Below, one piece after another: positions 37,592 through 61,189 of a stretch of 64,000 nucleotides of DNA; position 1 is the first letter of the stretch; every line of letters starts with the position of its first letter. The translations under genes and the position numbers were made by a program. This DNA comes from Streptomyces sp. HNM0574. GTDB taxonomy: Bacteria > Actinomycetota > Actinomycetes > Streptomycetales > Streptomycetaceae. Where the stretch lies: the NCBI RefSeq assembly GCF_012726235.1, contig NZ_JAASAH010000019.1, positions 1-64,000 of the forward strand. The letters run 5' to 3'. The notes beneath the pieces were generated by a model. It did no database searches, was not told where the DNA came from, and saw only the letters and a program-made list of their open reading frames with translations.

Positions 37592-37632
37592 TTGTCGGCG
37601 TGGCCGCCCCAGCTTACCGTTTGGCCTCAAAT
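37592..37632 (+). promoter_or_regulatory. promoter with regulon operator A
   Basis: TTGTCG (37592-37597), 17-bp spacer, TACCGT (37615-37620); operator GTTTGGCCTCAAAT at 37619-37632 overlaps the -10 end. Upstream of the LLM gene, 25 bp before its ATG. Confidence 0.75.
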
Positions 37633-37657
37633 CATCACCCCGTCCGGAGAGGTTCCC

Positions 37658-38623
37658 ATGCCGCTGCCGCAGCCGCACCCGCGTCCCGCCGCACCCCGGA
37701 TGACGCTCGTGCTGACCGAGAACTGGACGATGACCGGGGGCCGTTGCGATCTGGACGCCGTGCTCCGCTGGGCCCGCGAGGCCGAGGAGGCGGGCTTCGA
37801 CTCGGTGATGCTCAGCGAGCACATCGTGCTCGGCCCGGACTCCGGCGCGCGGGGCCTGATGCCGAACCCGCGCGAGTACGCGCTGCCGGGCAACCAGGAC
37901 CCGGACACCCCCTGGCCCAGCTCGGTGGTGCTGCTCTCCGCGATGGCCGCGGTGACCGAGCACATCCGGCTCGCGGCCGCCGCCGTGCTCGCCCCGCTGC
38001 GCCACCCGCTGCTGCTGGCCAAGGAGCTGGCCACCCTGGACCTGCTCTCCCACGGGCGCCTGGTGGTGCTGCCGACCGTGAGCTGGTCGAAGGACGAGTA
38101 CGCGGCACTCCAGGTGCCCTTCGCGCGGCGCGGCAGGCTGCTGGACGAGCACCTGGCGGCGTGGGAGGCGCTGTGGCGGCCGGGCCCGGTGACCTTCGAG
38201 GGCGAGCACTACCGCTTCCGTGACGTCCACCTGGAGCCCAAGCCGTTCCGCCCCTCCGGCCCCGAACTGTGGTTCGGCGGCGCCACGTTGCACGAGCCGC
38301 TGCTGCGCCGGCTGGTGCGCCACGGGGACGGTTTCAACCCGCTCGGCCGCCCCCGCCCGGAGGAACTGGCGAGGCTGCGCGCGGCGATGACCGAGGCCGG
38401 GCGGGACCTCGCGGACCTGGAGATGATCGGCGGCACCCGCGCCGCCTTCCCCGACGACGCATCGGTGGCCGGTCTGGACGCCGCACTGGAGAGCATCCCG
38501 GCACAGCTGGAGCAGGGTTTCGGCACCTTCTGCGTCAAGCCCTCGCAGTTCACCGACGACCCGCGAGACGTGGCCCGGTTCTGCCGCGAGGTGATGCGCA
38601 AGGTGCACGCACTGACCTCCTGA
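37658..38623 (+). CDS. LLM-class F420-dependent oxidoreductase
   Basis: A 321-aa luciferase-like TIM barrel, family TIGR03619-like. Typical parts: AREAEEAGFDSVMLSEHIVLG, VVLLSAMAAVTEHIRLAAAAVLAPLRHPLLLAKELATLDLLSHGRL and the FGGATLHEPLLRRLVRHGDGF segment. Such enzymes reduce or oxidise small organics with F420 or FMN. ATG 37658 follows GGAGAGG. Operator A precedes it, placing it in the MarR regulon; its step in the pathway is unknown. Confidence 0.88.
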   Translation: MPLPQPHPRPAAPRMTLVLTENWTMTGGRCDLDAVLRWAREAEEAGFDSVMLSEHIVLGPDSGARGLMPNPREYALPGNQDPDTPWPSSVVLLSAMAAVTEHIRLAAAAVLAPLRHPLLLAKELATLDLLSHGRLVVLPTVSWSKDEYAALQVPFARRGRLLDEHLAAWEALWRPGPVTFEGEHYRFRDVHLEPKPFRPSGPELWFGGATLHEPLLRRLVRHGDGFNPLGRPRPEELARLRAAMTEAGRDLADLEMIGGTRAAFPDDASVAGLDAALESIPAQLEQGFGTFCVKPSQFTDDPRDVARFCREVMRKVHALTS

Positions 38624-38685
38624 CGGCCGCACCGCACAACCCACGGCCACCTCGTACGGGCCCGTACGGATTACCGTCGCACCTC

Positions 38686-38726
38686 TTGGCAGGCACCCTC
38701 CCCCGCGCTTACGTTTGGCCTCAAAT
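38686..38726 (+). promoter_or_regulatory. promoter with regulon operator B
   Basis: TTGGCA (38686-38691), 18-bp spacer, TACGTT (38710-38715); operator GTTTGGCCTCAAAT at 38713-38726, identical to A. It drives the amidohydrolase gene 65 bp downstream. Confidence 0.75.
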
Positions 38727-38791
38727 GAGATCCGAGCCAACAGGTGCCGGACGCAGGGCACTTGGTCCCGCCCCCGTCCAGGAGGTCCGCC

Positions 38792-40501
38792 GTGCCGACT
38801 CCCGCAGATCTGGTGCTGTACGGCGGCACCGTGCTCACCATGGACGCCGCCTTCTCCCGCGCCGAGGCACTGGCCCTCCGGGGCGGGCGGGTGCTGGCCG
38901 CCGGGAGCGAGGCGGAGATCCGCGCCCTCACCGGGCCGCGCACCACCACCGTCGACCTGGCCGGGCGCACCGCGCTGCCCGGCATCAACGACTCCCATCT
39001 GCACGCCGCCGCCTTCGGCGCCTCCCGGCCCCCGCACTCCCTGGACTGCGGCTCCGCGGCGGTCTCCTCGCTCGCCGGGCTCGCCGAGGCCGTCCGCGAG
39101 CGGGCCGCCGCCCTGCGGCCCGGTACCTGGCTCACCGGCAGCGGCTGGGACCCCGGCTACCTCGCCGAGTGCCGGGCCGACCCGCGCCGCCACCCCACCG
39201 CGGCCGACCTGGACGCCGCCTCGCCCTCCCACCCCGTCGCCCTGACCGACTTCTCCGGGCACAACGTGCTGCTCAACTCCCGTGCCATGGAGCGCGCGGG
39301 GATCACCCGGCACACGCCCGTGCCGCCCGGCGGCGTCATCGAGCGGCACCCGGACGGCACGCCCACCGGCCTGCTGCGGGAGAGCGCCAAGGACCTCGGG
39401 TACGCGGCCGTCCCCGCGATGACCGGCGAGCAGCGGGAGTCCGCGATCCGCACCGCCGTACGGCTCTGCCACGCCGAGGGCATCACCTCGCTCACCGAGC
39501 CGGGGCTCGGCCCGGGCGGCACCTCCCTCTTCCTCGGCGCCGCGCACACCGACACCCTGCGCGCCTACGCCCGGCTCGCGGCCGCCGGTGAACTGGGCGT
39601 GAGGGTCAGCGTGCTGCTGCTGCCGCTGGAGATGGGCGGCGCCGCGTCCGGCCTGCCCGAGCGGCTCGCCGAACTGGAGGGGATCTGCGCGGACGCCGAC
39701 CCGCGCCTGCTGAACGTCCTCGGCGTGAAGCTCTTCGCCGACGGCATCCCGCCCGCCCGCACCGCCTGGATGCACGAGCCCTACGAGGAGAGCGCCGGCG
39801 GCGGCCGCGGCGGCCTGTGCCTGCACGGGCACAGCCACGCCCAACAGGTCGGCGAACTGCGGGAGATCGTCCGGTACGCGCACGCCGCCGGCCACCAGCT
39901 CGGCGTCCACATCACCGGCGACGCCGGGATCGACGCCGTGGTCGACGCGTTCACCGAGGCCCAGCTCGAACACCCCAGGCCGGACGCGCGGCACTACCTC
40001 ATCCACGGCGACTTCGCCTCGCCCCGCGCCCTGCGCACGCTCGCCGCGCACGGCTGGGGCGCCAACATGAACCCGGGCGTCAAGGACACCGTCGCGGACC
40101 TGATGGTCGGCGTCGCCGGTCCGGAACGGGCCGCCTACCAGTGGCCGGTGCGGGACGCGGTGGCCGCCGGGATCGCCGTCACCGCCTCGTCCGACGCCCC
40201 CGTCACGCACCCCGACTGGCGCCGCGGGGTGGCCTCGATGATGCTCCGCGAGTCCCGGGCCTCCGGCCGGGTCAGCGGGCCCGAACAGCGCGTCGGTCTG
40301 GAGACCGCGCTGCGCGCCTACACCACGCACGCCGCGCGCCAGGACTTCGCCGAGACCTGGAAGGGCACCCTGACCAGCGGCGCGGCGGCCGACGTCTGCG
40401 TCGTCGACGGGGACCTGCCGCACGCAGGACCGCACGAGATCGCCGAACTCCCGGTCGCGCTCACCGTGTTCGACGGGGAGATCGTGCACGACGCGCGCTG
40501 A
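38792..40501 (+). CDS. YtcJ-like amidohydrolase (amidohydrolase family 3)
   Basis: A 569-aa metal-dependent hydrolase. N-terminal beta domain (LVLYGGTVLTMDAAF...GRVLAAG), first metal motif DSHLHAAAFG, a central HGHSHAQQ and HITGD, then TASSDAPVTHPDW and a C-terminal GTLTSGAAADVCVVDGD. This is the YtcJ/NfdA group, which cleaves N-formyl, amide or carbamoyl bonds. GTG 38792 follows GGAGGT. Operator B puts it in the MarR regulon; it could hydrolyse an N-acyl or gamma-glutamyl intermediate, but the substrate cannot be deduced. Confidence 0.85.
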   Translation: MPTPADLVLYGGTVLTMDAAFSRAEALALRGGRVLAAGSEAEIRALTGPRTTTVDLAGRTALPGINDSHLHAAAFGASRPPHSLDCGSAAVSSLAGLAEAVRERAAALRPGTWLTGSGWDPGYLAECRADPRRHPTAADLDAASPSHPVALTDFSGHNVLLNSRAMERAGITRHTPVPPGGVIERHPDGTPTGLLRESAKDLGYAAVPAMTGEQRESAIRTAVRLCHAEGITSLTEPGLGPGGTSLFLGAAHTDTLRAYARLAAAGELGVRVSVLLLPLEMGGAASGLPERLAELEGICADADPRLLNVLGVKLFADGIPPARTAWMHEPYEESAGGGRGGLCLHGHSHAQQVGELREIVRYAHAAGHQLGVHITGDAGIDAVVDAFTEAQLEHPRPDARHYLIHGDFASPRALRTLAAHGWGANMNPGVKDTVADLMVGVAGPERAAYQWPVRDAVAAGIAVTASSDAPVTHPDWRRGVASMMLRESRASGRVSGPEQRVGLETALRAYTTHAARQDFAETWKGTLTSGAAADVCVVDGDLPHAGPHEIAELPVALTVFDGEIVHDAR

Positions 40502-40509
40502 ACCGGCCG

Positions 40510-41055
40510 TCAGTCCCCTCCGCCGACGCCGCGCCATGCGTCCTCGAGGACGGCGAACAGTTCGGAGTCGCGCCAGCCGTCCCGGATCAGGGCGGTGTGC
40601 CGGAGGCGGCCCTCCCTGGTCATGCCGAGCCGGCCGAGCACCCGGGCCGAGCCGAGGTTCCGCGGGTCGCAGGTGGCGTACACGCGGTGCAGGCCGAGCC
40701 CGTCGAAGGCGCGCGCCAGCAGCCCGGCGCCGATCGCCGTCCCCACGCCCCTGCCCCAGACCCGGGGATGCACGGCGTAGGTGATCTCCCCCTGCCGCTG
40801 CGCCCGGCTCCGGACGTGCAGCTCCCCCATGCCGACGACGTCGCCGCCGGACCGCGCCGCGTACGCGTACCGGTGCTGCGGTGACCGTTCCCAGGCCGCG
40901 GCGGCCTCCGCCACGAACGCGCGGGTCTGTGCCTCGGTGTTGGGCCCCCAGGTCTGGTAGCGGCAGACCTCGTCGAGGGAGGCCCAGGAGTGCACGGCCC
41001 GCCAGTCCGCCGGTTCGATCCGGCGCAGCGTCACGGCACCCCGGCTGCTCCCCAT
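40510..41055 (-). CDS. GNAT N-acetyltransferase (RimJ/RimL-like)
   Basis: A 181-aa acetyltransferase. It starts VTLRRIEPADWRAVHSWASLDEVCRY, has the acetyl-CoA loop HPRVWGRGVGTAIGAGLL and ends with HRVYATCDPRNLGSARVLGRLGMTREGRLRHTALIRDG, the full RimJ/RimL pattern. ATG 41055 is not preceded by a strong RBS. It is downstream of puuD on the same strand (47-bp gap), so it may be the last gene of the operator C operon. Confidence 0.85.
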   Translation of the reverse strand: MGSSRGAVTLRRIEPADWRAVHSWASLDEVCRYQTWGPNTEAQTRAFVAEAAAAWERSPQHRYAYAARSGGDVVGMGELHVRSRAQRQGEITYAVHPRVWGRGVGTAIGAGLLARAFDGLGLHRVYATCDPRNLGSARVLGRLGMTREGRLRHTALIRDGWRDSELFAVLEDAWRGVGGGD

Positions 41056-41102
41056 ATGCCTGACGGACGTACGGGGAGCGCGCGTCGGTTCCTCCTGCGC
41101 CG

Positions 41103-41822
41103 TCAGCGGGCGGCTTCCACCAGGGCGGTGAAGAGGGCCTGCTGTGCCGGGTCGGTGGCGGCGGTGTCCTCCGGGTGCCACTGGACGGCGGTGAACCAGG
41201 CGCGGCGGCCGGGGAGTTCGAGGGCCTCGGGGGTGCCGTCGGCGGCCCGGGCCGTCACGGTGAGGCCGCGTCCCGGGGCGTCGACGCACTGGTGGTGGTG
41301 GCAGGAGACCTCGGCCTTGTCCGTGCCGAGGACGCCGGAGACGCGTGAGCCGGGGCGCGTCGCGACCGGGTGGACGAGGTGCCGGTGGGCGCGTCCCGGG
41401 CCGCCCATGTCCTGGCGCAGGGTGCCGCCCAGCGCGATGTTGACGGCCTGGAGTCCGCGGCAGACGGCCAGCACGGGCAGCGGGGAGGCGAGGGCGGCGC
41501 GGGTCAGCGCCAGGTCGAAGGCGTCCTGCTCCTCGTCGACGTCGTACACCGCCGCGTGCACAGCGGCCTCCGCGCCTGCGTAGTGGTGCGGCGCGAAATC
41601 GCCGCCGCCGGGGAGGAGGAGAGCGTCGCAGCGGGCGAGGCGCGCGGCCGCCTCGGCCTCGTCGGCCCGGCCGCCGGGGGCGTGCGGGAGCAGCATCAGG
41701 GGCTCGCCGCCCGCCCGGTACACGGCTTCCGCCAGGGCGCGCGCGGTGACCACGGCCGCGTACCTGAGGACGGCGGTGTCCGGCGAGAAGCGCTGCGGGA
41801 GCGCGATCAGGGGGCGGGTCAC
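41103..41822 (-). CDS. puuD: gamma-glutamyl-GABA hydrolase family protein (peptidase C26)
   Basis: A 239-aa GATase1-fold hydrolase. It starts TRPLIALPQRF, has LLLPGGGDFAPHHY, the nucleophile elbow AVCRGLQAVNIALGG (Cys) and the His-Glu pair in AVQWHPEDTA, as in PuuD. The family cleaves the gamma-glutamyl amide bond, releasing glutamate. Its GTG start (41822) overlaps the stop of the PuuC gene by 4 bp, so the two are translationally coupled; this is the puuC-puuD pairing of gamma-glutamyl amine pathways. Operator C controls the unit. Confidence 0.85.
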   Translation of the reverse strand: MTRPLIALPQRFSPDTAVLRYAAVVTARALAEAVYRAGGEPLMLLPHAPGGRADEAEAAARLARCDALLLPGGGDFAPHHYAGAEAAVHAAVYDVDEEQDAFDLALTRAALASPLPVLAVCRGLQAVNIALGGTLRQDMGGPGRAHRHLVHPVATRPGSRVSGVLGTDKAEVSCHHHQCVDAPGRGLTVTARAADGTPEALELPGRRAWFTAVQWHPEDTAATDPAQQALFTALVEAAR

Positions 41823-43327
41823 AGCCGGATCCAGGTGGTCTTGAGCTCGGTGTACTTCTCCAGCGCGTGGGCGGACTTGTCGCGCCCGTTGCCGCTGTGC
41901 TTGTAGCCGCCGAAGGGGACGGTGAGGTCGCCCTCCTCGTAGCAGTTGACCCAGACGGTGCCGGCCCGCAGCCTCCGGGCGACGGTGTGTGCCGTGGTCA
42001 GGGAGCCGGTCCAGAGCCCGGCGGCCAGGCCGTACTCGGTGTCGTTGGCGAGGCGGACGGCCTCCTCGGCGTCGCGGAAGGTGAGCACGGAGAGCACCGG
42101 GCCGAAGATCTCCTCCCGGCAGACCGCGGCCGACGGGGCGACGCGGTCGAGGACGGTCGGCGCGTAGTAGCTGCCGCCGGGGACGCGTTCCAGCCGGGTG
42201 CCGCCGGTGCGGAGCCGGGCGCCGCCCGCTACCGCGCCGTCGACGTGGGACTGGAGGACGCCGACGCAAGCCTCGCCGGACTGGGCGCCCATCCCGGTGG
42301 CCGGGTCCAGCGGGTCGCCGACGCGCAGCGCCCGGGCCCTGGCCACCACGGCGTCCACGACCCGGTCGGCGACGGACTCGTGGACGAGCAGCCGGGAGGG
42401 CGCGGTGCACATCTCGCCCTGGTTGAAGAAGATGCCCCAGGCGGCGGTGGCGGCTGCCACGTCCAGGTCGGGGGCGTCGGGGAAGACCAGGTTGGGAGAC
42501 TTGCCGCCCAGCTCCAGCCAGACCCGTTTGAGGTTGGAGTCGGCGGCGTGGTGCAGGAAGTGCCGTCCGACGGCGGTGGATCCGGTGAAGGCGAGGACAT
42601 CGACGTCCGGGTGGAGGCCGAGGGCGCGGCCCGCGGTGGGGCCGTCCCCGGCGATCACGTTCAGCACGCCGTCGGGGAGGCCGGCCTGCTGCGCGAGTTC
42701 CGCGAGGAGCAGCGCGGAGAGCGGGGTGACCTCGGAGGGTTTGAGCACCACCGTGCAGCCGGCGGCGAGCGCCGGGGCGAGTTTCCAGCCGGCGAGGGTG
42801 AGCGGGAAGTTCCAGGGGACGACGGCGCCGACGACGCCGGACGGTTCGCGGGTGACGAGCGCGAGTGCGGCGGGATCGGTGTGCGGGGACTCGTCGGCGA
42901 GCTTGTCGGCGAGCTGGCCGTAGAAGCGGAACGTGGCGGCGAGGGCGCGCAGTTCGACGCCGTACGCCTCGCCGACCGGTTTGCCGTTCTCCAGGGTGAC
43001 GGTCAGGGCGAGCCGGGTGCGGTGTTCCTCGGCCTCCAGGAGTCCGGCGAGGCGGAGCAGGACGCGGCCGCGGTCGGCGGGGGCGAGGCGGGGCCAGGGG
43101 CCGTGGTCGAAGGCGCGGCGTGCGGCGGCGACCGCGAGGCCGGTCTCCGCCGGGCCCGCGTCGGCGACGTCGGCGAGATGGCGGCCGTCGCGGGGCGAGG
43201 TGACGGGGAAGGTGGCGCCGCCGCCGGGTTCGGCGCGGCCGTCGATGTGGTGCGTGGTGCGGAAGGTGGCCTTCTCGGCGTGCGCGGTCCAGTCCTGGTG
43301 GCTGCGGGTGGCCAGGGCGTCCGGCAT
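41819..43327 (-). CDS. puuC: gamma-glutamyl-aminobutyraldehyde dehydrogenase-like aldehyde dehydrogenase
   Basis: A 502-aa NAD(P)-dependent aldehyde dehydrogenase. Catalytic set: Asn in VPWNFPLTLAGWKLAPALAAG, Glu in WLELGGKSPNLV, Cys in FFNQGEMCTAPSRLLV, and EEIFGPVLSV. The C-terminus GDLTVPFGGYKHSGNGRDKS followed by ALEKYTELKT is very close to E. coli PuuC. The family oxidises gamma-glutamylated amino-aldehydes and related aldehydes. ATG 43327 follows AGGAGG. Operator C overlaps its promoter. Together with PuuD it supports a gamma-glutamylation route; the actual aldehyde may be aromatic. Confidence 0.88.
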   Translation of the reverse strand: MPDALATRSHQDWTAHAEKATFRTTHHIDGRAEPGGGATFPVTSPRDGRHLADVADAGPAETGLAVAAARRAFDHGPWPRLAPADRGRVLLRLAGLLEAEEHRTRLALTVTLENGKPVGEAYGVELRALAATFRFYGQLADKLADESPHTDPAALALVTREPSGVVGAVVPWNFPLTLAGWKLAPALAAGCTVVLKPSEVTPLSALLLAELAQQAGLPDGVLNVIAGDGPTAGRALGLHPDVDVLAFTGSTAVGRHFLHHAADSNLKRVWLELGGKSPNLVFPDAPDLDVAAATAAWGIFFNQGEMCTAPSRLLVHESVADRVVDAVVARARALRVGDPLDPATGMGAQSGEACVGVLQSHVDGAVAGGARLRTGGTRLERVPGGSYYAPTVLDRVAPSAAVCREEIFGPVLSVLTFRDAEEAVRLANDTEYGLAAGLWTGSLTTAHTVARRLRAGTVWVNCYEEGDLTVPFGGYKHSGNGRDKSAHALEKYTELKTTWIRL

Positions 43328-43350: not shown

Positions 43351-43367
43351 GTTTGGGCTCAAACATA
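43351..43367 (-). promoter_or_regulatory. promoter with regulon operator C
   Basis: Minus strand: TATGTT -10 (43367-43362) overlapping operator GTTTGAGCCCAAAC (43364-43351), 23 bp before the puuC ATG. The -35 is weak (TGTCGG-like). Confidence 0.75.
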
Positions 43368-43395: not shown

Positions 43396-43438
43396 TTGAC
43401 CGCCGCCATCGCCACCCATACTTTGTTTGAGCTCAAAC
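43396..43438 (+). promoter_or_regulatory. promoter with regulon operator D
   Basis: TTGACC (43396-43401), 17-bp spacer, TACTTT (43419-43424), then the perfect palindrome GTTTGAGCTCAAAC at 43425-43438 on the transcription start, 17 bp before the hpaE ATG. This is the best copy. Confidence 0.85.
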
Positions 43439-43455: not shown

Positions 43456-44946
43456 ATGGCACCCATCCCGCAGCAGGACCCGGTGGCCCGGGTCGCCGGG
43501 GTCCCGGTCGACACCCGGCACTGGATCGGCGGCGAACGCGTCGCCTCCGCCGCCGCCTTCCCCGACCACTCCCCCGTCGACGGCGCGCTCCTCGCGCACG
43601 TCGCGCGCGGCGGCGAGGCCGAGGCGCACGCCGCCGTCACAGCGGCACGGGACGCCTTCCCCGGCTGGGCCGCCACCCCGCCCGGGGAACGCGCCCGCGT
43701 CCTGCACCGCATCGCGGACGGCATCGAGGCCCGCACCGAGGAGCTCGCGCGGGTGGAGACCGCCGACAACGGCGCCCTCCTGCGCTCCCACCGGCGCGGT
43801 GTGATGCCCCGCGCGGCGCAGAACCTCCGCCACTTCGCCGACCGTCTTCTCACCCTGAACCACGAGGACTTCGAGACCCGGGGCCACAGCAACCACGTCA
43901 GCTGGGACCCCTCGGGCCCCGCCGTGCTGATCACGCCGTGGAACGCGCCGCTGATGCTCGCCACCTGGAAGCTCGGCCCGGCGCTGGCCGCGGGCTGCAC
44001 GGTGGTGCTCAAGCCCGCCGAGTGGGCACCGCTGACCGCCTCCCTCCTCGCCGGCATCGCCCACGAGGCCGGCCTCCCCGCCGGGGTGTTCAACCTGGTG
44101 CAGGGGTACGGAGCCGAGGCCGGGACCCCGCTGGTGTCCGACCCGCGGGTGCGGCGGATCTCCTTCACCGGCTCCGTCCCCACCGCCCGGACGATCGCCG
44201 GGCACGCCGCCGCGCACCTCGTCCCTACCAGCTTCGAACTGGGCGGCAAGTCCCCGCTGCTGGTCTTCGCCGACGCCGACCTGGACCTGGCGGCCGGCCT
44301 CGCCGTCGAGCAGTACGACAACGCGGGCCAGGTGTGCCTCGCCGGGACCCGGCTGCTGGTCGAGGAGTCCGTGCGGGACGTCTTCCTGGAGAAATTCCTG
44401 GCCAGGGCACGGGAGTTGACGCTCGGCGACCCGCGCGACGAGGCCACCTCCATGGGCCCGAACATCCATCCGCGCCACCTGGAACGCGTGGACGGCTTCG
44501 TCCGGCGGGCCCTCGCGGCCGGGGCCAGGCCGCTGCTCGGCGGGGAGCCGCACACCGCCCTGGCCGAGCGGCTGGGCGGCACGTACTACCTGCCGACGCT
44601 GCTCACCGACGTCGCCCAGGACTCCGAGATCGTCCAGGAGGAGGTCTTCGGCCCCGTACTGACCCTCCAGACCTTCGCCGACGAGGAGGAGGCCGTACGG
44701 CTCGCGAACGGCACCCGCTTCGGCCTCGCCGCGACCCTCGCCACCGGCGACCCGGAGCGCGCCGAACGGGTCGCCGCACAGCTGGTCGCGGGCACCGTGT
44801 GGACCAACTGCTTCTTCGTACGGGACCTTTCGGCGCCGTTCGGCGGCTCCCGCGAGTCCGGCATCGGCCGCGAGGGCGGCGACTGGTCCTTCGACTTCTA
44901 CTGCGACCTGAAGACCACCGTCACCGCACCGGCGGGGTGGTCCTGA
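43456..44946 (+). CDS. hpaE: 5-carboxymethyl-2-hydroxymuconate semialdehyde dehydrogenase-like
   Basis: A 496-aa aldehyde dehydrogenase. Asn in ITPWNAPLMLATWKLGPALAAG, Glu in FELGGKSPLLVF, Cys in NAGQVCLAGTRLLV. The tail FGGSRESGIGREGGDWSFDF, followed by YCDLKT, is typical of HpaE/hydroxymuconic-semialdehyde dehydrogenases. It would oxidise the ring-cleavage aldehyde made by HpaD. ATG 43456 follows ATGGAGG. First gene of a five-gene operon (operator D); its stop overlaps the HpaD start (TGATG). Confidence 0.88.
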   Translation: MAPIPQQDPVARVAGVPVDTRHWIGGERVASAAAFPDHSPVDGALLAHVARGGEAEAHAAVTAARDAFPGWAATPPGERARVLHRIADGIEARTEELARVETADNGALLRSHRRGVMPRAAQNLRHFADRLLTLNHEDFETRGHSNHVSWDPSGPAVLITPWNAPLMLATWKLGPALAAGCTVVLKPAEWAPLTASLLAGIAHEAGLPAGVFNLVQGYGAEAGTPLVSDPRVRRISFTGSVPTARTIAGHAAAHLVPTSFELGGKSPLLVFADADLDLAAGLAVEQYDNAGQVCLAGTRLLVEESVRDVFLEKFLARARELTLGDPRDEATSMGPNIHPRHLERVDGFVRRALAAGARPLLGGEPHTALAERLGGTYYLPTLLTDVAQDSEIVQEEVFGPVLTLQTFADEEEAVRLANGTRFGLAATLATGDPERAERVAAQLVAGTVWTNCFFVRDLSAPFGGSRESGIGREGGDWSFDFYCDLKTTVTAPAGWS

Positions 44947-46726: not shown

Positions 46727-46770
46727 ACTCCCCTCCATCCGGCCGCACTTCCTCTCGAAAGGATCACGCC

Positions 46771-52768: not shown

Positions 52769-52796
52769 GCTGGCACTCCCGGGGACGAGGGATCTC

Positions 52797-52814
52797 GTTT
52801 GGGCCCGTACGATA
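52797..52814 (-). promoter_or_regulatory. regulon operator F
   Basis: Minus strand: TATCGT -10 box (52814-52809) overlapping GTACGGGCCCAAAC (52810-52797). One half is altered as in site E (GTACGGG), the other is intact. Confidence 0.6.
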
Positions 52815-52919
52815 TGCGCCGCGGCGGCACCTTGTCACGGGGGCCTCCGCACCCGGGACGTCCCACCGGCCTTCGGCCCCGGTGTGCGGAGTGCCGGCGG
52901 TCACGGGCACCGGAACCGG

Positions 52920-52957
52920 CCGGCCGCGGGGCGTCCCGAGAGGCGTCCCGCGGCCGG
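52920..52957 (-). terminator. terminator of the exosortase cluster
   Basis: Arms 52920-52933 and 52944-52957 (14 bp, one mismatch that can pair as G-U), 10-base loop, 17 bp after the last stop of the minus-strand cluster. Confidence 0.75.
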
Positions 52958-52974
52958 GGGCCACCGGGGCGGCG

Positions 52975-53673: not shown

Positions 53674-53717
53674 GCGGTGGCCTCTTTCTCTTGCAGGGCG
53701 GGACGGACCGGGCGGCA

Positions 53718-54281: not shown

Positions 54282-55603
54282 TTGGGCAGCGCCCCCGCCG
54301 GTGCGGGCGCGGTGTCGAGGACGCGGCGGGTCTTGTCCCACCCGTGCCGTCGGCGCAGCATGCGCAGCAGCCCGCGCCAGACGGCGGCGTAGGCCACGTA
54401 GTTGGCCGGCAGGAGCACGTGGCCCAGCAGCAGACTGCGCAGGAGCGAGCAGTCGCCGGCGCGGCGCCGGTAGAGGCAGGCGGCGATCAGGTTGGGGAAG
54501 AAGGAGACGACGTACCAGAGCAGGGCCGCGGGCACGGTGGAGAGACCTTGACCCCACAGTTGTCCGTGACTGAGGTGGAAGACGGTGACGGCGAGGGTGA
54601 GGTGGAAGAGGACGGACCAGCCCAGCACCAGCACCCAGGGCACCAGGAGGTACATGGTGACCTCCAGCAGAGCGAGGTGCCCCACCCGCAACGAGGCCCA
54701 CAGTTCGGGCAGTCGGGTCACGGCGGTCATGTGGCCCTGCATCCAGCGGGTGCGCTGACGGGCCAGCCGTCGCCAGGATTCCAGCCCCTGCTGCTCGACC
54801 CAGGCATGCGGGGTGGAGGTCAGTTTCCAGCCCCGGGTGACCAGGGAGACCGTCAGGTCGAGGTCTTCGGTCAGGGCGCTGGACCAGGGGTGGTCGCTCA
54901 CCGTGAGCAGCGCCGACAGGCGGGTGAACTGACCGTTGCCGCCGAGGCTGACGGTGGAGGTGGCGATCCGGCCGAACTGGGAGACGGCGGCCAGGCCCCA
55001 GAACTCCATGTCCTGCACCCGCGTGATCAGGCGGTGGCGGTTGACGATCCGCACCGGGAGCTGGGCACCGCCCACCCGGGGGTCGTCGAACAGTTCCAGG
55101 ACCTGGTCCACCGCCCGTACGGACAGTCTCCCGTCGGCGTCCATCACGCCGATCACCACATCGTGGGGCGGCAGGCCGCGGAGGGCGATGTCGGCGACCA
55201 CGTGGCGAAGCCCGGCGTTGAGGGCGGCCCCCTTGCCCTGGCGGGCCTCGGGGGCGGTGCGGGTGATCACGGTCAGGCGGCCCTCGGGGCACGCGCCACG
55301 CGCTCGCGGCACGGTGGCGTCCGCGCATCCGTCGTCGATGAGGACGACGTGGGCGCGGGGGTCGGCAGCGCACAGCTGCGTGACCGTACGGGCGATGACT
55401 TCCTGCTCGTCCAGGCACGGCACGAGGAAGTAGATCTGCCGCACGCCGCCCCGGCCGGTCAGTTCGAGCGGCACCGGTCCGCGCCGTCGCATGCGCCGTT
55501 CGTGGCGCAGTCCGCTGATCGTGGTGGCGAGAAAGTAGAGCAGCCCGGCGCAGATGACGACCGCGACGACGGCCTCGTACAGGCCCACCAGTGCTTTCGG
55601 CAC
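54278..55603 (-). CDS. processive family 2 glycosyltransferase, membrane-bound
   Basis: A 441-aa enzyme. N-terminal helix (VVAVVICAGLLYFLA), GT-A domain with Asp pair LIDDG (90-91), DAD (155-157), TEDLD (245-249) and QRTRW (283-287), then four C-terminal helices. The ED and QxxRW motifs mark processive polysaccharide synthases of the BcsA/HAS/PgaC type. GTG 55603 follows GGAAGGGTGAGG. It may build a glycan from the UDP-ManNAc or UDP-GlcNAc supplied by the epimerase encoded upstream. Coupled to the exosortase gene. Confidence 0.88.
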   Translation of the reverse strand: MPKALVGLYEAVVAVVICAGLLYFLATTISGLRHERRMRRRGPVPLELTGRGGVRQIYFLVPCLDEQEVIARTVTQLCAADPRAHVVLIDDGCADATVPRARGACPEGRLTVITRTAPEARQGKGAALNAGLRHVVADIALRGLPPHDVVIGVMDADGRLSVRAVDQVLELFDDPRVGGAQLPVRIVNRHRLITRVQDMEFWGLAAVSQFGRIATSTVSLGGNGQFTRLSALLTVSDHPWSSALTEDLDLTVSLVTRGWKLTSTPHAWVEQQGLESWRRLARQRTRWMQGHMTAVTRLPELWASLRVGHLALLEVTMYLLVPWVLVLGWSVLFHLTLAVTVFHLSHGQLWGQGLSTVPAALLWYVVSFFPNLIAACLYRRRAGDCSLLRSLLLGHVLLPANYVAYAAVWRGLLRMLRRRHGWDKTRRVLDTAPAPAGALPK

Positions 55604-55610
55604 CGCCGCC

Positions 55611-55772
55611 TCACCCTTCCCGGTTCGCGGCCTGCGCGCGGCGGCGGGCGATCGCCCGTACCGCGAGAGCACCGAGGACCACCGCCCCCACGGCACACAG
55701 CACCCACAGGATCAACGGCGTTCCGGTGTCGGCCAGTTCGGAAGGGGAGGGCGGGAGGGAAGGGGTGTACAC
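55611..55772 (-). CDS. 53-aa LADTG-tail membrane peptide
   Basis: A very small frame, missed by usual cut-offs. GTG 55772 is the only start after an in-frame stop; GGAAG lies about 10 bp before it. The peptide reads a short Pro/Ser-rich head, LADTG at residues 14-18, a hydrophobic helix (about 19-40) and ARRRAQ. This is the layout of a C-terminal cell-wall sorting signal of the LAxTG type found in streptomycete chaplins, but here with almost no protein before it and no signal peptide. It sits between the epimerase and glycosyltransferase genes. It may be a real small protein or the remnant of a longer anchored protein. Confidence 0.6.
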   Translation of the reverse strand: MYTPSLPPSPSELADTGTPLILWVLCAVGAVVLGALAVRAIARRRAQAANREG

Positions 55773-55825
55773 GAAGGATTCTTCCGATCTTTCACGGGAG
55801 GCGTCCGGGAAGGGCGGTCATCAGG

Positions 55826-57070
55826 TCAGGCGCTGGCCAGGTCCGGTGGGTGCGGCGCGGCGCCGCGTGGAGCGGTGACGGGCAGGTGCGGGCCGGTGCG
55901 CTCTGCGGGCAGTTGCGCGGCTGCGCAGGCGCAGCCGGCCGCACGGTGCACCAGACGGGCGATGCGCGTGGAGGCGCGCCCGTCCCCGAACGGGCTGGGC
56001 AGGGACCGCAGTTGGTCATACAGGCCGGGGACCCGGGCCAGGCACTCGGTGACGGCCGTGGCGATCTGCCGCGGCGTCACCAGCCGGGCGAAGTCCGTCA
56101 TGGCCTCGGGCCGTTCGGTGCTGCGCCGTACCACCACCAGCGGCCGGCCGAGTACGGTGCACTCTTCCTGCATCCCGCCCGAGTCGGACACCACCACGGC
56201 TGCCCCGGACGCGAGGGCCAGGAAGTCCCGGGGCGGCAGCGGCGAGGACGGACGGAGCGGGGCGAGCAGGCCGCTCAGGCCGTGGCGGTCGACCGCGGCC
56301 AGGGTCCTGGGGTGCAAGGGCAGCACCACCGGGCAGGGGAGGCGGCCGAGTTCGGTCAGGATTCGCCGCAGGACGGCGGGATCGTCGGTGTTCTCCGGCC
56401 GGTGCACCGTAGCCAGCACGTACCCGTTGATCCCTACGCGATGGGAGGCGGTGACGCGTTGCCGGTCGGCGTCGGTGGGCAGATTCCGCCGCACTGCCTC
56501 GACCACGGTGTTTCCCGTGACGAAAACCCGGTGCCCGGGAATTCCCTCGCGGGTGAGATTGTCTGCGTTCAACTCGGTCGCGGCGCACAGGACGTCCGAC
56601 AGATGATCGACCAGAATGCGGTTGTGTTCCTCCGGCATGGACCGGTCCCGGGAACGCAGCCCCGCTTCGACATGGACCAGCGGAATACCTCGCGCATTGG
56701 CAGCCAGCGCTCCGGCCAGAGTGGCATTCGTATCACCCTGCACCACAACTGAGCGCACCTCGTGCCGGGCCAGCCAGGCATCCACACCGGTGACCCCCTC
56801 CCCGATCTGTCGTCCACGGCTGCCGCCGCCGACCGAGAGCTGGAGTTGCGCCAACGGCATCCCCGTCCCGGAGCCGACCTTTCCGGCCAGCTCCGGATCG
56901 AAATGCTGTCCCGTGTGGATCACACTCGCCGCGGCACCCAGCAGATTCACGAGCCCGGCAAGTTTCACCGTTTCCGGTCGCGTGCCCAACACCACCGCGA
57001 CACTCGACGGCGGGAGCCGGGAACAGCGGAACTCGGCGAAGTGAGGCGTGGGCAGAACATCCAGAGACAT
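55826..57070 (-). CDS. UDP-N-acetylglucosamine 2-epimerase (WecB/MnaA-like)
   Basis: A 414-aa enzyme. It has VVLGTRPETVKLAGLV at the start, HTGQHFD, VVQGDTNATLAGAL, HVEAGLRSRDRSMPEEHNR, VHRPENTDDP, LPLHPRT and SDSGGMQEE, all diagnostic for non-hydrolysing UDP-GlcNAc 2-epimerases making UDP-ManNAc. A Pro/Ala-rich ~40-residue tail follows. ATG 57070 with AGAGAG upstream. First gene of the minus-strand exosortase cluster; it probably supplies sugar for the GT2 enzyme. Confidence 0.92.
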   Translation of the reverse strand: MSLDVLPTPHFAEFRCSRLPPSSVAVVLGTRPETVKLAGLVNLLGAAASVIHTGQHFDPELAGKVGSGTGMPLAQLQLSVGGGSRGRQIGEGVTGVDAWLARHEVRSVVVQGDTNATLAGALAANARGIPLVHVEAGLRSRDRSMPEEHNRILVDHLSDVLCAATELNADNLTREGIPGHRVFVTGNTVVEAVRRNLPTDADRQRVTASHRVGINGYVLATVHRPENTDDPAVLRRILTELGRLPCPVVLPLHPRTLAAVDRHGLSGLLAPLRPSSPLPPRDFLALASGAAVVVSDSGGMQEECTVLGRPLVVVRRSTERPEAMTDFARLVTPRQIATAVTECLARVPGLYDQLRSLPSPFGDGRASTRIARLVHRAAGCACAAAQLPAERTGPHLPVTAPRGAAPHPPDLASA

Positions 57071-57508
57071 TCGGCATCTCTCTGTGAGGGGGGGAGGGAC
57101 GACACTTCAGCCCGAACATCTCAATTCATCATCCATAACGCTGTTCTCACACGATGAATGAATGAAGACTTGCCCCGCCAGGCCCATTCGTCGGATTTTC
57201 CGCATTCCCCCCTTGGCCCTACGGGACCGCGGGGACATCGCCACGGACCACGGCGAGGAGGGGGCCCGCACGGACAGACCCTGCCGACGCCCGTGTTCAC
57301 GACGGCCGGACGGGAGCCCGAACACCCGGGCCCGGTGGGCCAATTCGGCACTCGGCCCTCTTGTGCCCGCCGCCGGGTCTCCCTAAGGTGCACAGTGCCC
57401 GGATATTGTTTGATCTCAAACGAGAACCGGCTCCCGCTCAAGTCCCGCACACCCGCCGCCCGGTGCGGCGCACCGTCCCGATCCGCTCCGCAGAAAGGCT
57501 GGGACACG
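57071..57508. other. 438-bp divergent region with operator G
   Basis: Carries the promoter of the exosortase cluster (minus) and, at 57404-57421, the operator G promoter of the glutamine-synthetase-like gene (plus). The 87-bp leader after the operator is long. No other gene or RNA recognised. Confidence 0.5.
57404..57421 (+). promoter_or_regulatory. regulon operator G
   Basis: TATTGT -10 box (57404-57409) overlapping GTTTGATCTCAAAC (57408-57421), symmetric in all 14 positions. The -35 is not clear. Confidence 0.75.
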
Positions 57509-58888
57509 GTGAGCAACGACGCAGCACCCTTCTCTCCCGCCACCACCCCCGACGAGGCCGTCGCCGCTCTCCGCGCGCAGGGCACGGACGTCGTCCGCGT
57601 CGTGTATCCGGACATGATCGGGGCCGACCGGGGCCGGGACGTCCTGGTCGAGCACCTGCCCTCGGCCTGCGGCCACGGGCTCTCCTTCTGTCACGCCGTG
57701 TACCACACCAGTCCGCAGGGCGACGTGGTGCGGGTCCCGGGCGGGCTGGACGCGGGGCTCCCCGACGTCCAGATCCGCCCCGACCTGGCCACCCTGCACC
57801 CGCTGCCCTGGGAGCCGGGCGTCGCCTGGTGCCTGGGCGACGCCACCGACCCGGCCACCGGAGCGCCGCCCCACGAGTCGCCGCGCGACCTGCTGCGCGG
57901 CGTCGTCGAACGGGTCTCGGGCATCGGCGGGACGGCGCTGACCCCGGTCGTGGGCCCGGAGTTGGAGTACTACCTGTGCGAGCGGGACGAGCGCGCGCCC
58001 GGCGGCTGGGCCCCGTACGCGCCGGCGCCCGGGAACGTGTACAGCGCGGGTCGGCGCGGCGATCCGGACTCGCATCTGCTGCGCACCCTGCGGCTGCTGC
58101 GCGATCTGGAGATCGGCGCGACCATGGGCAACCACGAGTTCGACAGCGGCCAGTTCGAGGTGAACCTCGACCACTCCACGGCCCTGGACGCCGCCGACCG
58201 CGCCTTCCGCTTCAAGTCCGCCGTGAAGGAACTGGCCCGCACCGAGGGCCGCCAGGCCACCTTCATGGCCAAACCCTTCAACGGCCTCGGCGGTTCCGGA
58301 TTCCATCTGCACCTGTCACTGCTGGACACCAAGGGCCGCAACGTGTTCGACGGTGCGGAGGGCGACGACGGGCTGTCCGCCACCGCCCGGCACGCCGTCG
58401 CGGGCGTCCTCCGGCACGCCCCCGCGCTGGCCGCGCTGCTCAACCCCACGGTCAACTCGTACAAGCGGTTCGGCCCGGACACGCTGGCCCCCTGGCTGAT
58501 CGACTGGGGGCTCGACAACCGCAGCGCCATGCTCCGCATCCCCCCGGAGCGCGGCGCGGGCAGCCGCATGGAGCTGCGGCTCGGCGACGCCTCGGCCAAC
58601 CCGTATCTCGCCGTCGCGGGCACCCTCGCGGCGATCGGACTCGGGCTGCGCGACAAGTGCGAACCGCCGGCGCCGCTGGACGGCTACGGCTACCGCACGG
58701 AGCTGTCCGCCGAGCTGCCCCGGACCCTGCCGGCCGCGCTCGACGCGCTGCGGGCCGACACCGAGTTCGCCGGCCTCCTCGGCCCCGGCTTCACCCGCTC
58801 CTTCCTCGCCTACAAGCGCGACGAGGTCCGGCGGTTCCAGCAGCACATCACCGACTGGGAGTTCACCGAGTACGCGGCTCTGACGTGA
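57509..58888 (+). CDS. glutamine synthetase-like gamma-glutamyl-amine ligase
   Basis: A 459-aa GS-fold protein. Metal/ATP ligands visible: PELEYYL (Glu pair), GNHEFDSGQFEVNLDH, GSGFHLHLS (His), NPTVNSYKRFGPD and the RMELRLGDASANPYLA motif. It lacks the usual DGSS ammonium site of true GlnA, having YPDMIGADRGRD at that place, as in GS-like enzymes that join glutamate to amines (PuuA, GlnA3/A4, aniline and isopropylamine ligases). GTG 57509 follows AAAGG. Operator G controls it. With PuuC and PuuD it forms a gamma-glutamyl amine route; the amine is unknown. Confidence 0.85.
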   Translation: MSNDAAPFSPATTPDEAVAALRAQGTDVVRVVYPDMIGADRGRDVLVEHLPSACGHGLSFCHAVYHTSPQGDVVRVPGGLDAGLPDVQIRPDLATLHPLPWEPGVAWCLGDATDPATGAPPHESPRDLLRGVVERVSGIGGTALTPVVGPELEYYLCERDERAPGGWAPYAPAPGNVYSAGRRGDPDSHLLRTLRLLRDLEIGATMGNHEFDSGQFEVNLDHSTALDAADRAFRFKSAVKELARTEGRQATFMAKPFNGLGGSGFHLHLSLLDTKGRNVFDGAEGDDGLSATARHAVAGVLRHAPALAALLNPTVNSYKRFGPDTLAPWLIDWGLDNRSAMLRIPPERGAGSRMELRLGDASANPYLAVAGTLAAIGLGLRDKCEPPAPLDGYGYRTELSAELPRTLPAALDALRADTEFAGLLGPGFTRSFLAYKRDEVRRFQQHITDWEFTEYAALT

Positions 58889-58917
58889 GCGCACCGCCCC
58901 CGACCGAAGGAGTCCCC

Positions 58918-60201
58918 GTGACCGCCCCGACCACCGCCCGCGCCACCGGTCCGCTCCCCCTGGAGGAGGTCGATCTCGCCGACAACGACAACTTCACCGA
59001 CGGCGACCTGCCCTGGCGGATGCTGGAGACGCTGCGCCGCGAGGACCCCGTGCACTGGCAGCCGGAACCGGCGCCCAACAGCGGCTTCTGGGCCGTCACC
59101 CGGCACGCGGACATCGTGACGGTGGACCGGGACGCGGAGACCTTCACCTCCACCGGGTTCACCAATCTCGAAGAGGTCGACGACGCCCTGAAGGACAAGC
59201 GGCGCTCCCTCCTCGAAACCGACGGACTGCGCCACCGCGCCCTGCGGACGCTGCTCCAGCGCCGCTTCACCCCGCGCGCCCTGGCCCCGTACGAGACGTA
59301 TCTGCGCGGGCTGACGGCCACCACGCTGGACGCGGCACTGGCCCGGGGCAGCTTCGACTTCGTCAAGGAGGTCTCGGCGGACTTCCCGATCAACGTGCTG
59401 GCCCGGCTCCTCGACGTCCCCGAGGGGGACACCCGGCAGCTGATCGACTGGGGCAACCGGATCATCGGCAACACCGACCCCGACTACGCCGACGTCCTCC
59501 TGGAGAGCGAGGACAGCGAGCGCTACCGGGACCTGCCCTTCCGCTCCCCGGCCGCGCTGGAGGTCTTCGAGTACGGCCGCGCGCTGGCCGCAGCCCGGCG
59601 CGGCAAGGACGGCGGTGACCTCGTCTCCGCCCTCGTCAACTCCGCACCCTCGGACGGTGTCCCGCTCTCCCCGCAGGACTTCGACAACTACTTCCTGCTG
59701 CTGGTGGTGGCGGGCAACGAGACGACCCGGCACGCCATTTCGCACGCGATGCACGCCCTGATCGAGCACCCGGAGCAGCTGCGCCTCCTCCAGCGGGACC
59801 CGTCGCTGATCCCCGGCGCGGTGGAGGAGTTCCTCCGCTGGGCGTCCCCCGTCTACCACTTCCGGCGGACCGCCACCCGGGACGTCGAACTGCGCGGCAA
59901 GCGGATCAGGCGGGGCGACAAGGTGGTGCTGTGGTTCGCCTCGGGCAACCGGGACGAGGACGTCTTCGAGGAGCCCGGCCGCTTCGACGTCACCCGCCGG
60001 AACGTGGACCACGTCACCTTCGGCAAGGGAGGCCCGCACTTCTGTCTGGGGAACTCGCTGGCCCGGATGGAGATGCGGATCATGTTCGAGGAGCTGCTGC
60101 CGAGGATCGCGGACATCCGGCTCGACGGCGAAGTGCGGCGCGTCCGCTCGAACTTCGTGAACGGCATCAAGGAACTCCCGGTCACCGTCACCCGGGCCTG
60201 A
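58918..60201 (+). CDS. cytochrome P450 of the CYP125/CYP142-like group
   Basis: A 427-aa soluble P450. I-helix VVAGNETTRHAISHAM with the acid-alcohol pair, ExxR in EEFLRWASPVYHFRRTA, and heme loop FGKGGPHFCLGNSLARMEM with the Cys ligand. The AGNETTR form occurs in the CYP124/125/142 region of the family. GTG 58918 follows CGAAGGAG, 29 bp after the GS-like gene, so both are in one operon under operator G. The ferredoxin and reductase at 46771-48188 are likely partners. Ring or side-chain hydroxylation of a glutamylated substrate is a reasonable guess. Confidence 0.88.
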   Translation: MTAPTTARATGPLPLEEVDLADNDNFTDGDLPWRMLETLRREDPVHWQPEPAPNSGFWAVTRHADIVTVDRDAETFTSTGFTNLEEVDDALKDKRRSLLETDGLRHRALRTLLQRRFTPRALAPYETYLRGLTATTLDAALARGSFDFVKEVSADFPINVLARLLDVPEGDTRQLIDWGNRIIGNTDPDYADVLLESEDSERYRDLPFRSPAALEVFEYGRALAAARRGKDGGDLVSALVNSAPSDGVPLSPQDFDNYFLLLVVAGNETTRHAISHAMHALIEHPEQLRLLQRDPSLIPGAVEEFLRWASPVYHFRRTATRDVELRGKRIRRGDKVVLWFASGNRDEDVFEEPGRFDVTRRNVDHVTFGKGGPHFCLGNSLARMEMRIMFEELLPRIADIRLDGEVRRVRSNFVNGIKELPVTVTRA

Positions 60202-60214
60202 TTCCGCAAGCACG

Positions 60215-60247
60215 GTGCGGCACCCGGCGAGGGGGCGGGTGCCGCAC
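60215..60247. terminator. bidirectional terminator between P450 and SDR genes
   Basis: GTGCGGCACCCG (60215-60226) and its perfect complement (60236-60247), 9-base loop, between convergent stops 60201 and 60254. Confidence 0.85.
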
Positions 60248-60253
60248 GGCCGG

Positions 60254-61075
60254 TCAGCCGGTCCTGGGCTCCAGGCGGTAGTCCAGGGGGACGTAGCCCG
60301 GGTCGACGGTGGACGTGCCGCCGTCGACGGTGAGCGCGGCCCCGTTGACGTACGAGGCCCCGGGCCCCAGGAGCCACAGCACGGCGCGGGCCACCTCCTC
60401 CGGGGCGGCCGGCCTGCGCTGCGGGACCAGGGCGGTGGCCTCGCGGTAGGCGTCCTCGGTGGAGAGTCCGGACGGGGCGCCGAAGGCGGCCATTTCGGCG
60501 TCGGCCATCTCCGAGCGGGTCCAGCCGGGGACGACGGTGTTGGCGCGTACGCCACGCGGGCCCGCCTCGGCGGCGACGACCGTGGTCAGCATGTGCGCCC
60601 CGGCCTTGGAGGCGGCGTACGCGGCGGAGCCGGGCGCGGCCCGCAGTCCCGCCACCGAGCCCACCGTCACCATCGCCCCGCCCGTGTCCTCCAGAGCCGG
60701 GAGCGCGGCTCTGGCGAGGAGGAAGACGGAGGTGAGGTTGGTGGCGAGGGAGGACTCCCAGTCCTCGTCGGTGAGTTCGCGCAGCGGTGCGGCCCGCATC
60801 ACCCCGGCACAGGCCACCAGTCCGTCGAGCCGTCCGTGCGCGGCGAGCACGTCCTCGACCAGCTGCCGCACCTCGGCCGGGGAGGTCGCGTCGGCCGGGT
60901 GCGCGGTGCCGCCGCACTCCTCCGCGAGCCGCCGCAGCGGGTCCGCCCGCCGCCCGGCCAGGGCGATCCGGGCGCCACCGGCCGCCCCTTCCCTGGCCAC
61001 CGCGGCGCCGATCCCGCTGCCCGCGCCGACGACCAGGTGGACGGGGGCGGCGGGATGCGTCGGGCGAGCGTTCAT
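60254..61075 (-). CDS. short-chain dehydrogenase/reductase
   Basis: A 273-aa SDR. NAD(P)-binding VVGAGSGIGAAVAREGAAGG, the CAGVM loop, catalytic Ser in VTVGSVAGLRAAPGS, YAASKAG (Tyr-x-x-x-Lys), VVPGWTRSEM and YVNGAALTVDGG. Arg in ALAGRRADPL after the second strand suggests NADP preference. ATG 61075 follows GAGGAGG; the longer frame starts inside the operator, so I rejected it. Operator H precedes it. It probably oxidises or reduces a hydroxyl of a pathway intermediate. Confidence 0.9.
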   Translation of the reverse strand: MNARPTHPAAPVHLVVGAGSGIGAAVAREGAAGGARIALAGRRADPLRRLAEECGGTAHPADATSPAEVRQLVEDVLAAHGRLDGLVACAGVMRAAPLRELTDEDWESSLATNLTSVFLLARAALPALEDTGGAMVTVGSVAGLRAAPGSAAYAASKAGAHMLTTVVAAEAGPRGVRANTVVPGWTRSEMADAEMAAFGAPSGLSTEDAYREATALVPQRRPAAPEEVARAVLWLLGPGASYVNGAALTVDGGTSTVDPGYVPLDYRLEPRTG

Positions 61076-61148
61076 CCGGGTCCTCCTCGGGGCGGCGGCA
61101 GGGGCCGAACCCGGCGGCGTGGACTGCCGGTTGGGGACACCGGGTTTC

Positions 61149-61189
61149 ATTTGGCCTCAAACGCTAGCCGTCGGCTCCCGTCCCCACAA
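61149..61189 (-). promoter_or_regulatory. promoter with regulon operator H
   Basis: Minus strand: TTGTGG (61189-61184), 17-bp spacer, TAGCGT (61166-61161), operator GTTTGAGGCCAAAT (61162-61149). Same geometry as A and D. Confidence 0.75.

Follow-up and report, generated by a model that had tools for sequence, protein, structure and literature searches.

The first 64,000 nucleotides of contig NZ_JAASAH010000019.1 of Streptomyces sp. HNM0574 (assembly GCF_012726235.1; this whole stretch is called the window below) contain a cluster of catabolic genes, together with a gene for a MarR-family regulator and eight copies of a palindromic motif, named sites A to H. An initial annotation of the window had proposed that these palindromes lie on the -10 boxes of nearly every operon of the cluster and bind a single MarR repressor. 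The present analysis describes the sites and the genes behind them, follows motif and regulator through related genomes, and weighs the regulatory model against its rivals.

Eight palindromic sites and the genes behind them

The six strong palindromes and the two degenerate copies listed by the initial annotation are all present in the window. Site A (37619-37632, plus strand, GTTTGGCCTCAAAT) lies in the promoter of an LLM-class oxidoreductase gene (TTGTCG-17-TACCGT), about 110 bp upstream of a divergent GATase gene, and site B (38713-38726, plus strand, again GTTTGGCCTCAAAT) in that of an amidohydrolase gene, where TTGGCA stands 17 bp from TTACGT or 18 from TACGTT. Site C (43351-43364, GTTTGAGCCCAAAC on the minus strand) belongs to the promoter of an operon headed by a PuuC-like aldehyde dehydrogenase, and site D (43425-43438, plus strand), the perfect palindrome GTTTGAGCTCAAAC, to that of a ring-cleavage operon (TTGACC-17-TACTTT). 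Site G (57408-57421, plus strand, GTTTGATCTCAAAC) precedes the genes of a glutamine synthetase (GS)-like ligase and a cytochrome P450, while site H (61149-61162, GTTTGAGGCCAAAT on the minus strand) fits the promoter (TTGTGG-17-TAGCGT) of a short-chain dehydrogenase (SDR) gene and not that of a GNAT gene. The two remaining sites are of variant sequence: site F (52797-52810, GTACGGGCCCAAAC on the minus strand) in the promoter of an acetoacetate decarboxylase (ADC)-fold gene (TGACAA-17-TATCGT), and site E (49058-49071, GTACGGGATCAAAC, given no strand) between marR on the minus strand and an amino acid permease (APC) gene on the plus strand. The MarR gene thus lies in the middle of the cluster with a copy of its own, as had been noted, that copy being a variant operator and not the strict palindrome.

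The -35 elements reported 17 bp away at sites A, D and H exist and are of the TTG type; they are not the only ones, since B and F also have a -35. The initial annotation had each copy begin at the end of a -10 box; the palindromes at A, F, G and H contain the last bases of the -10, and at D the -10 (TACTTT) abuts the palindrome. Upstream of site E, in the permease-side -35 region (window 49030-49071), stands an inverted half-like element, CCGTACGATC, which may be a second, partial operator; it recurs in loci of Embleya (L068) and Yinghuangia (L143).

The coding frames of the window were set from GC content at third codon positions (GC3) and from family matches, and the operons were deduced from gene spacing and strand. 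Sixteen genes stand behind sites A-H, or 17 counting the GATase gene divergent from A; the initial annotation had put the number at about 14. Site A serves the LLM-class oxidoreductase (37660-38623, plus strand; TIGR03619 family, above the NCBIfam cut-off), with the class I glutamine amidotransferase-like protein (Pfam GATase; 36745-37509, minus strand) on its other side, and site B an amidohydrolase family 3 protein (38793-40501, plus strand, start inferred). Behind site C, on the minus strand, lie the PuuC-like aldehyde dehydrogenase (ALDH1, 41819-43327; 527 bits against a cut-off of 850), a gamma-glutamyl hydrolase-like peptidase C26 (41103-41867, start inferred; 157.3 bits with Pfam for the longer open reading frame 41103-42410) and, probably as the last gene of the operon, a GNAT acetyltransferase (40510-41100, start inferred). 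The operon behind site D, on the plus strand, encodes an HpaE-like aldehyde dehydrogenase (ALDH2, 43456-44946; 522 bits, cut-off 638), a LigB-family extradiol dioxygenase distantly related to HpaD (44943-45863; 118 bits, cut-off 316), an HpaG-like FAH-family protein (45860-46726; 198 bits, cut-off 276), a ferredoxin (Fd, 46723-46959) and a ferredoxin reductase (FdR, 46989-48188). Site E is flanked by marR (48426-48998, minus strand, within P0001) and the permease gene (49197-50681, plus strand). The MppR-like ADC-fold protein (51959-52768, minus strand) follows site F; the GS-like protein, probably a gamma-glutamyl amide ligase (57509-58888, plus strand), and the P450, whose closest solved relatives are of the CYP125/CYP124 type (58888-60201, plus strand), follow G; and the SDR (60254-61075, minus strand) follows H.

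Genes for a methyltransferase, a DUF642 protein, a glycosyltransferase, an epimerase and an OsmC protein are interleaved with these or adjoin them, none with a site of its own, and a second GNAT gene is divergent from H. The first four (50814-57070) break up the cluster, and no tblastn match to them was found at 1e-15 in 85 relatives' loci.

The regulator contains a MarR winged-helix domain (Pfam PF01047, 44.5 bits against a cut-off of 24.6), and its AlphaFold model (pLDDT 86.5, pTM 0.74) has the MarR fold. Foldseek places MftR-DNA, HpaR-DNA (7el3, third), PcaV and BpsR among the top five matches. The next relative in its own genome is only 32% identical, so that no close paralogue exists there. 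The helix-turn-helix residues GISKGTLTGV are invariant in 23 of 23 aligned rows and show one S-to-T exchange (in L067) in a 25-row alignment, which is in line with a conserved operator.

Exclusivity, conservation and co-occurrence

In the window, the motif gives 12 strand-wise matches with at most two mismatches, corresponding to six places; the mean over 100 shuffled windows was 0.77, the maximum 5, and none of the 100 reached 12. The genome (6,365,259 bases in 34 contigs) holds six copies of the strict pattern RTTTGNNNNCAAAY (RTTTG-N4-CAAAY), and all six are the palindromes of the cluster. A random frequency of the motif genome-wide, which the initial annotation had named as fatal to its proposal, is therefore not what is seen. 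With up to three mismatches, TCGTTTGRNNYCAAACGA is found at 11 places genome-wide, namely sites A-H and three others (C1:33731, C3:78764 and C32:94960), against two for the reversed-letter control. A looser 16-letter pattern gives 48 strand-wise matches at three mismatches against 39 for its reversed control, and every match with at most two mismatches is a cluster site. The 14-bp palindrome first described is thus real, but the motif is wider and its middle less fixed: it takes the form TCGTTTGRNNYCAAACGA in relatives, and the CTC bias of the middle belongs to this window.

Conservation was followed in 80 named MarR loci, the best of 477, from one genome per species, with orthologues of 66-82% identity and 1,514,441 bases in all; four plasmid loci were added to give a set of 84, and a Niallia locus (L071; MarR about 35% identical, no good motif) was excluded. 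The pattern [AG]TTTG-N4-CAAA[CT] has 76 matches in 39 of the 80 loci and the reversed pattern none, while control spacings of 3, 5 and 6 gave 0, 0 and 3 matches and five shuffles 0, 0, 0, 1 and 0. In the set of 84 there are 94 matches in 42 loci, with the symmetrised consensus CATATCGTTTGGGCCCAAACGATATG. When a matrix was built from the relatives' matches, with the window left unused, the positions of the window scoring at least 8 were exactly sites A-H, from 40.7 for D, the highest, to 18.7 for F and 10.1 for E. On the window shuffles, the genome-wide counts and the relatives' controls, a chance origin of the palindromes was rejected.

The sites also stand before the leading genes of operons. 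Orthologues were scored with this matrix as having a site when one lay between 350 bp upstream and 60 bp inside the gene, with gene starts in relatives estimated from tblastn and sites of divergent pairs counted for both genes. A site was found for GATase in 12 of 14 cases, amidohydrolase in 6/8, ALDH1 in 25/40, GS in 26/46, LLM in 7/13, FdR in 10/17, ADC in 16/30, Fd in 10/20, APC in 3/6, MarR in 33/83 and ALDH2 in 12/35. FdR counts as site-bearing because the short ferredoxin gene precedes it, and in relatives some of the ALDH2 genes that lack a site are preceded by ADC or Fd genes. No site precedes C26 (0/44), LigB (0/37), FAH (0/38) or P450 (0/19), each of which is non-leading in the operons of the window, nor OsmC (0/2).

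Each site with a recognised gene start at -25 to 160 bp was oriented towards the nearest such gene, which gave 142 sites, reduced to 111 by dereplication. Of these 111, 73 carry the TA of a -10 at -4 and -3 on the promoter side, against 17 on the mirrored arm (p = 1e-14), and 33 carry the TTG of a -35 upstream at -28 to -26, against one mirrored (p = 3e-10). Conservation of the downstream arm, CAAACGA, is strong and no lower than that of the promoter-side arm, and this combination of conserved arms with an asymmetric -10 and -35 points to a symmetric operator core superimposed on an asymmetric promoter. The clearest picture is given by the GS promoters, with TTG at -28 to -26 in 24 of 25. At ALDH2 and Fd sites TTG is absent from this position, and many of them show TTGACC two to three bases further up and a -10 just before the palindrome, like site D of the window. 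Sites of marR seldom have a -35 (TTG in 1/30).

Operator variants recur as well. The arm GTAYGG is present at 12 of 16 ADC sites and all three APC sites of the relatives, and CGAAC in the downstream arm at 28 of 30 marR sites. In the window, sites E and F are of the GTACGG type, E matching APC-side sites of S. silaceus (L072), Embleya (L068) and Yinghuangia (L143). We infer that such variants would be bound more weakly, which would suit autoregulation.

Regulator, motif and cluster co-occur across 249 family genomes, scored for MarR at E<=1e-40, for ALDH2 as cluster marker at E<=1e-200 and for the strict motif GTTTGRNNYCAAAC. MarR was called in 36 genomes and the motif in 33; 26 have both, 10 MarR only, 7 the motif only and 206 neither (p = 6e-21). 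All 28 marker-positive genomes carry the MarR gene, against 8 of the 221 marker-free ones (p = 4e-30). In 21 of the 28 a strict match lies within 3 kb of ALDH2. Five others (L165-L169) have no strict match, their clusters bearing ATTTG/CAAAT or one-base variants with best scores of 33.7-38.8 each; G213 has its strict match on another contig and cluster variants scoring 28.3 and 26.3 (L171); and in G038, assembled in 1650 contigs, the sites cannot be placed relative to ALDH2. In three genomes marR shares a contig with the cluster but at a great distance from it (1.84 Mb in G107, 6.9 Mb in G009 and 0.57 Mb in G083; L152, L155 and L156), and the GS/Fd promoter region of each retains two sites. 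On the strength of these three genomes, the idea that MarR accompanies the cluster by local linkage only was rejected.

Several observations stand beside these counts. In Lentzea (L097, L099, L106, L110 and others) the MarR orthologue adjoins a GS-like gene, mostly without other enzymes in reach, an arrangement which is perhaps a simpler related unit. S. varsoviensis (L074) has two ALDH2-promoter sites, at 13457 and 13472, whose starts are 15 bp apart. The shorter pattern TTTGNNCTCAAA, searched in 394 family genomes, is absent from 278 and mostly present in one or two copies elsewhere, with 5-12 strand-wise copies in a few; two genomes (G141 and G379) hold several scattered copies of TTTGTCCTCAAA, nine apiece among the matches listed, perhaps a repeat or another regulon.

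The regulatory model and its rivals

The proposal of one MarR repressor acting on palindromic -10 operators of nearly every operon is supported by the exclusivity of the motif, its conservation, its placement at leading genes, its promoter asymmetry and its co-occurrence with the regulator. We consider the probability that the eight palindromes are the operators of the MarR protein encoded at 48426-48998, with common repression and release by a ligand, to be close to nine in ten. According to this model, a MarR dimer would bind TCGTTTGRNNYCAAACGA. As one arm of this sequence reaches into the -10 box or borders on it, the bound dimer would sterically bar RNA polymerase from seven promoters of catabolic genes, and likewise from the marR/permease region. 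A substrate or intermediate of the pathway would then bind MarR and release all operons together, so that the whole pathway is very probably switched on and off as one, with weaker repression expected at the variant operators of marR/permease and the ADC-fold gene, a form of autoregulation. Binding, repression, ligand and operator hierarchy are all parts that we infer from this arrangement.

A number of points weigh against the model. With regard to promoters, sites C and G have only a weak -35 and site E none that could be seen. The score of E (10.1) is below the cut-off of 12 applied to relatives, and H is not conserved, none of three SDR orthologues having a site. The upstream counts of the relatives are partly circular, as the matrix was trained on the same loci; the 80-locus pattern count and the genome-wide counts of RTTTGNNNNCAAAY and TCGTTTGRNNYCAAACGA are free of this circularity. 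Half of the loci (42/84) lack the strict motif. Of these, 19 are of the Lentzea type, in which GS alone accompanies MarR (18 from Lentzea itself and one from Nocardia sp. NRRL S-836); a further 13 show no more than a single additional cluster gene within reach, and the remaining 10 contain several cluster genes, with weaker sites only, scoring 14.7-28.1. Lentzea shows only drifted candidate sites (e.g. GATAACGTTGAGGGGCAAACGCTATC) despite the same GISKGTLTGV helix, which is not fully explained. Further, the 7 of 33 motif-positive genomes without MarR have nothing close to the cluster genes next to their sites, only P450 or FAH homologues of 39-40% identity, and in two MarR-positive genomes (G154 and G217) the strict matches adjoin no cluster gene; the strict matches of these nine genomes are background. 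Finally, eight MarR-positive genomes lack the marker. The marR region was examined in five of them: four (L172-L175) have no site scoring at least 10 within about 8 kb of marR and no cluster gene besides a 37% SDR homologue, and in the fifth (L176) sites accompany fragmentary matches to the cluster.

Palindromes of this size serve several regulator families, and TetR-family genes adjoin the clusters of some relatives, such as S. canus, so that another regulator might bind the sites and MarR be a mere fellow gene of the cluster. This is improbable in view of the marker-positive genomes, every one of which keeps MarR even where it lies far off on the same contig, and of the site near the marR start in two fifths of its orthologues (33/83); moreover, no other regulator family was found among the Pfam-scanned proteins of the window between 36.7 and 62.3 kb.

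The possibility that MarR acts as an activator or a dual regulator, and not as a simple repressor, has some basis in the family, HpaR being described in PMC7180172 as activating T6SS4 from a site at -241, and the -35 is poor at sites C and G, a common trait of activated promoters. We regard it as slightly less probable still, since on the promoter side the palindromes extend into the -10 or adjoin it, a position that blocks the polymerase; the TTG present at 24 of 25 GS sites of the relatives also gives those promoters the look of full ones that need no activator.

The position of the motif at -10 and its often fixed spacing to a -35 could also be those of a promoter element common to these genes, for instance that of an alternative sigma factor. 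This is very unlikely and was rejected, for the motif is palindromic, as sigma elements are not known to be, its downstream arm is no less conserved than the one on the promoter side, and it follows a single MarR gene across genomes.

With the common MarR repressor retained, the boundary of the regulon is sharp: eight operators in one cluster and almost none elsewhere, with a regulator that co-occurs even when far off. The operator delimits the gene set of a single uncharacterised pathway and so narrows the search for its substrate, and MarR with its palindrome could serve as a substrate-sensor part in actinomycetes.

The pathway and related systems

The most interesting content of the regulon is this uncharacterised pathway. 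The controlled genes look like those of an amine pathway, in which the permease would import the amine, the GS-like ligase would gamma-glutamylate it, and the P450 with its ferredoxin and reductase, together with the PuuC-like dehydrogenase, would oxidise the product; the C26 hydrolase would remove the glutamate and the HpaD/HpaE/HpaG-like enzymes would carry out extradiol ring cleavage. The Puu-type trio of GS-like ligase, aldehyde dehydrogenase and gamma-glutamyl hydrolase is present in the cluster, with NCBIfam scores for the putrescine pathway of 245.8 (cut-off 650), 527.2 (850) and 55.2 (266), respectively; as all three are below the cut-off, putrescine is argued against as the substrate. 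No PuuB-like FAD oxidase family appears among the Pfam-scanned proteins of the cluster, the genome-wide search not having been made. NCBIfam and PDB matches yielded only distant relatives (HpaD/HpaE/HpaG, PuuC, type III GS and CYP125-like) and did not name a substrate.

From the homoprotocatechuate set the cluster contains only D-, E- and G-like genes, all below their NCBIfam cut-offs, HpaH not having been searched for; CHMI (HpaF fold) and HpcH/HpaI-family genes above cut-off lie on other contigs. A search with 23 window proteins (tblastn, 1e-5) around the sole CHMI and the best HpcH/HpaI genes revealed no second homoprotocatechuate cluster, a 34% GS homologue being the single match.

We tentatively propose, at somewhat less than even odds, an undescribed actinobacterial pathway in which an amine with an aromatic ring would be gamma-glutamylated, oxidised by the P450 and the PuuC-like enzyme and ring-cleaved by the HpaD/E/G-like enzymes, the ADC-fold enzyme replacing the missing hydratase/aldolase. 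One MarR would govern it through graded operators, strong at most catabolic promoters, with GTACGG- or CGAAC-arm variants of presumably lower strength at marR, the permease and the ADC-fold gene, variants that recur across genera. In the titles and abstract beginnings of those open-licence papers that were listed, control by a single MarR of a gamma-glutamyl ligase together with a P450 and HpaD/E/G-like enzymes was not described, and the motif strings gave no match in the open-licence literature.

Several known systems are comparable in part. As expected of a MarR-family system, palindromes overlie the promoters of the neighbours and of the regulator's own gene, the latter being a variant. PcaV of Streptomyces coelicolor (4fht/4g9y), a Streptomyces MarR regulator of aromatic catabolism, is a structural match to the MarR model, with about 27% identity over the aligned region. 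The nearest described case found is HpaR, the MarR-family repressor of the 4-hydroxyphenylacetate meta operon in E. coli W and Yersinia pseudotuberculosis, whose 15-bp sites contain TTAA-N4-TTAA, the second hpaG1 site being centred at -8 (PMC7180172). The MarR fold, a dyad with a 4-bp centre, its centring at -8 (in HpaR at one hpaG1 site) and the HpaD/E/G-type genes under control are common to both. Unlike HpaR, with its two hpaG1 sites and an activating site elsewhere, the present system has eight sites over one cluster, with half-sites GTTTG-N4-CAAAC in place of TTAA-N4-TTAA; it also includes a gamma-glutamyl ligase, a P450 system and a C26 hydrolase, with Hpa-like enzymes under the NCBIfam cut-offs, and, of the full set of homoprotocatechuate meta genes (D, E, F, G, H, I) under HpaR, the cluster shows only the D-, E- and G-like ones, HpaH not being among the genes searched. 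By these comparisons the system would work like HpaR without being HpaR, having another operator and another gene set.

In S. coelicolor, EpuRI controls glnA4, the gene of a gamma-glutamylethanolamide synthetase, according to the available text of PMC6529630. As in that case of Streptomyces amine catabolism, a repressor gene is divergent from a GS-like gamma-glutamyl ligase; the text describes one target gene, against several operons here, and gives no operator, and the term MarR is absent from the main text of that paper. Aniline degradation, for its part, runs via gamma-glutamylanilide by means of the GS-like AtdA1, an amidotransferase-like enzyme and a dioxygenase (PMC4539516, in its available part). 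Gamma-glutamylation likewise precedes oxygenation there, with ring cleavage in the wider pathway; in the present cluster, a P450 system replaces the dioxygenase, and a C26 hydrolase, a PuuC-like dehydrogenase and HpaD/E/G-like ring-cleavage enzymes are found.

The genera in which the cluster was found include Streptomyces, Embleya, Yinghuangia, Nonomuraea, Actinomadura and Kibdelosporangium, and some of its copies lie on plasmids. The whole or much of it is plasmid-borne in S. lunaelactis (pSLUN1, L067), in S. canus (L069) and on two Embleya megaplasmids (L068 and L070), and this location in several actinomycetes suggests that it may be exchanged between strains.

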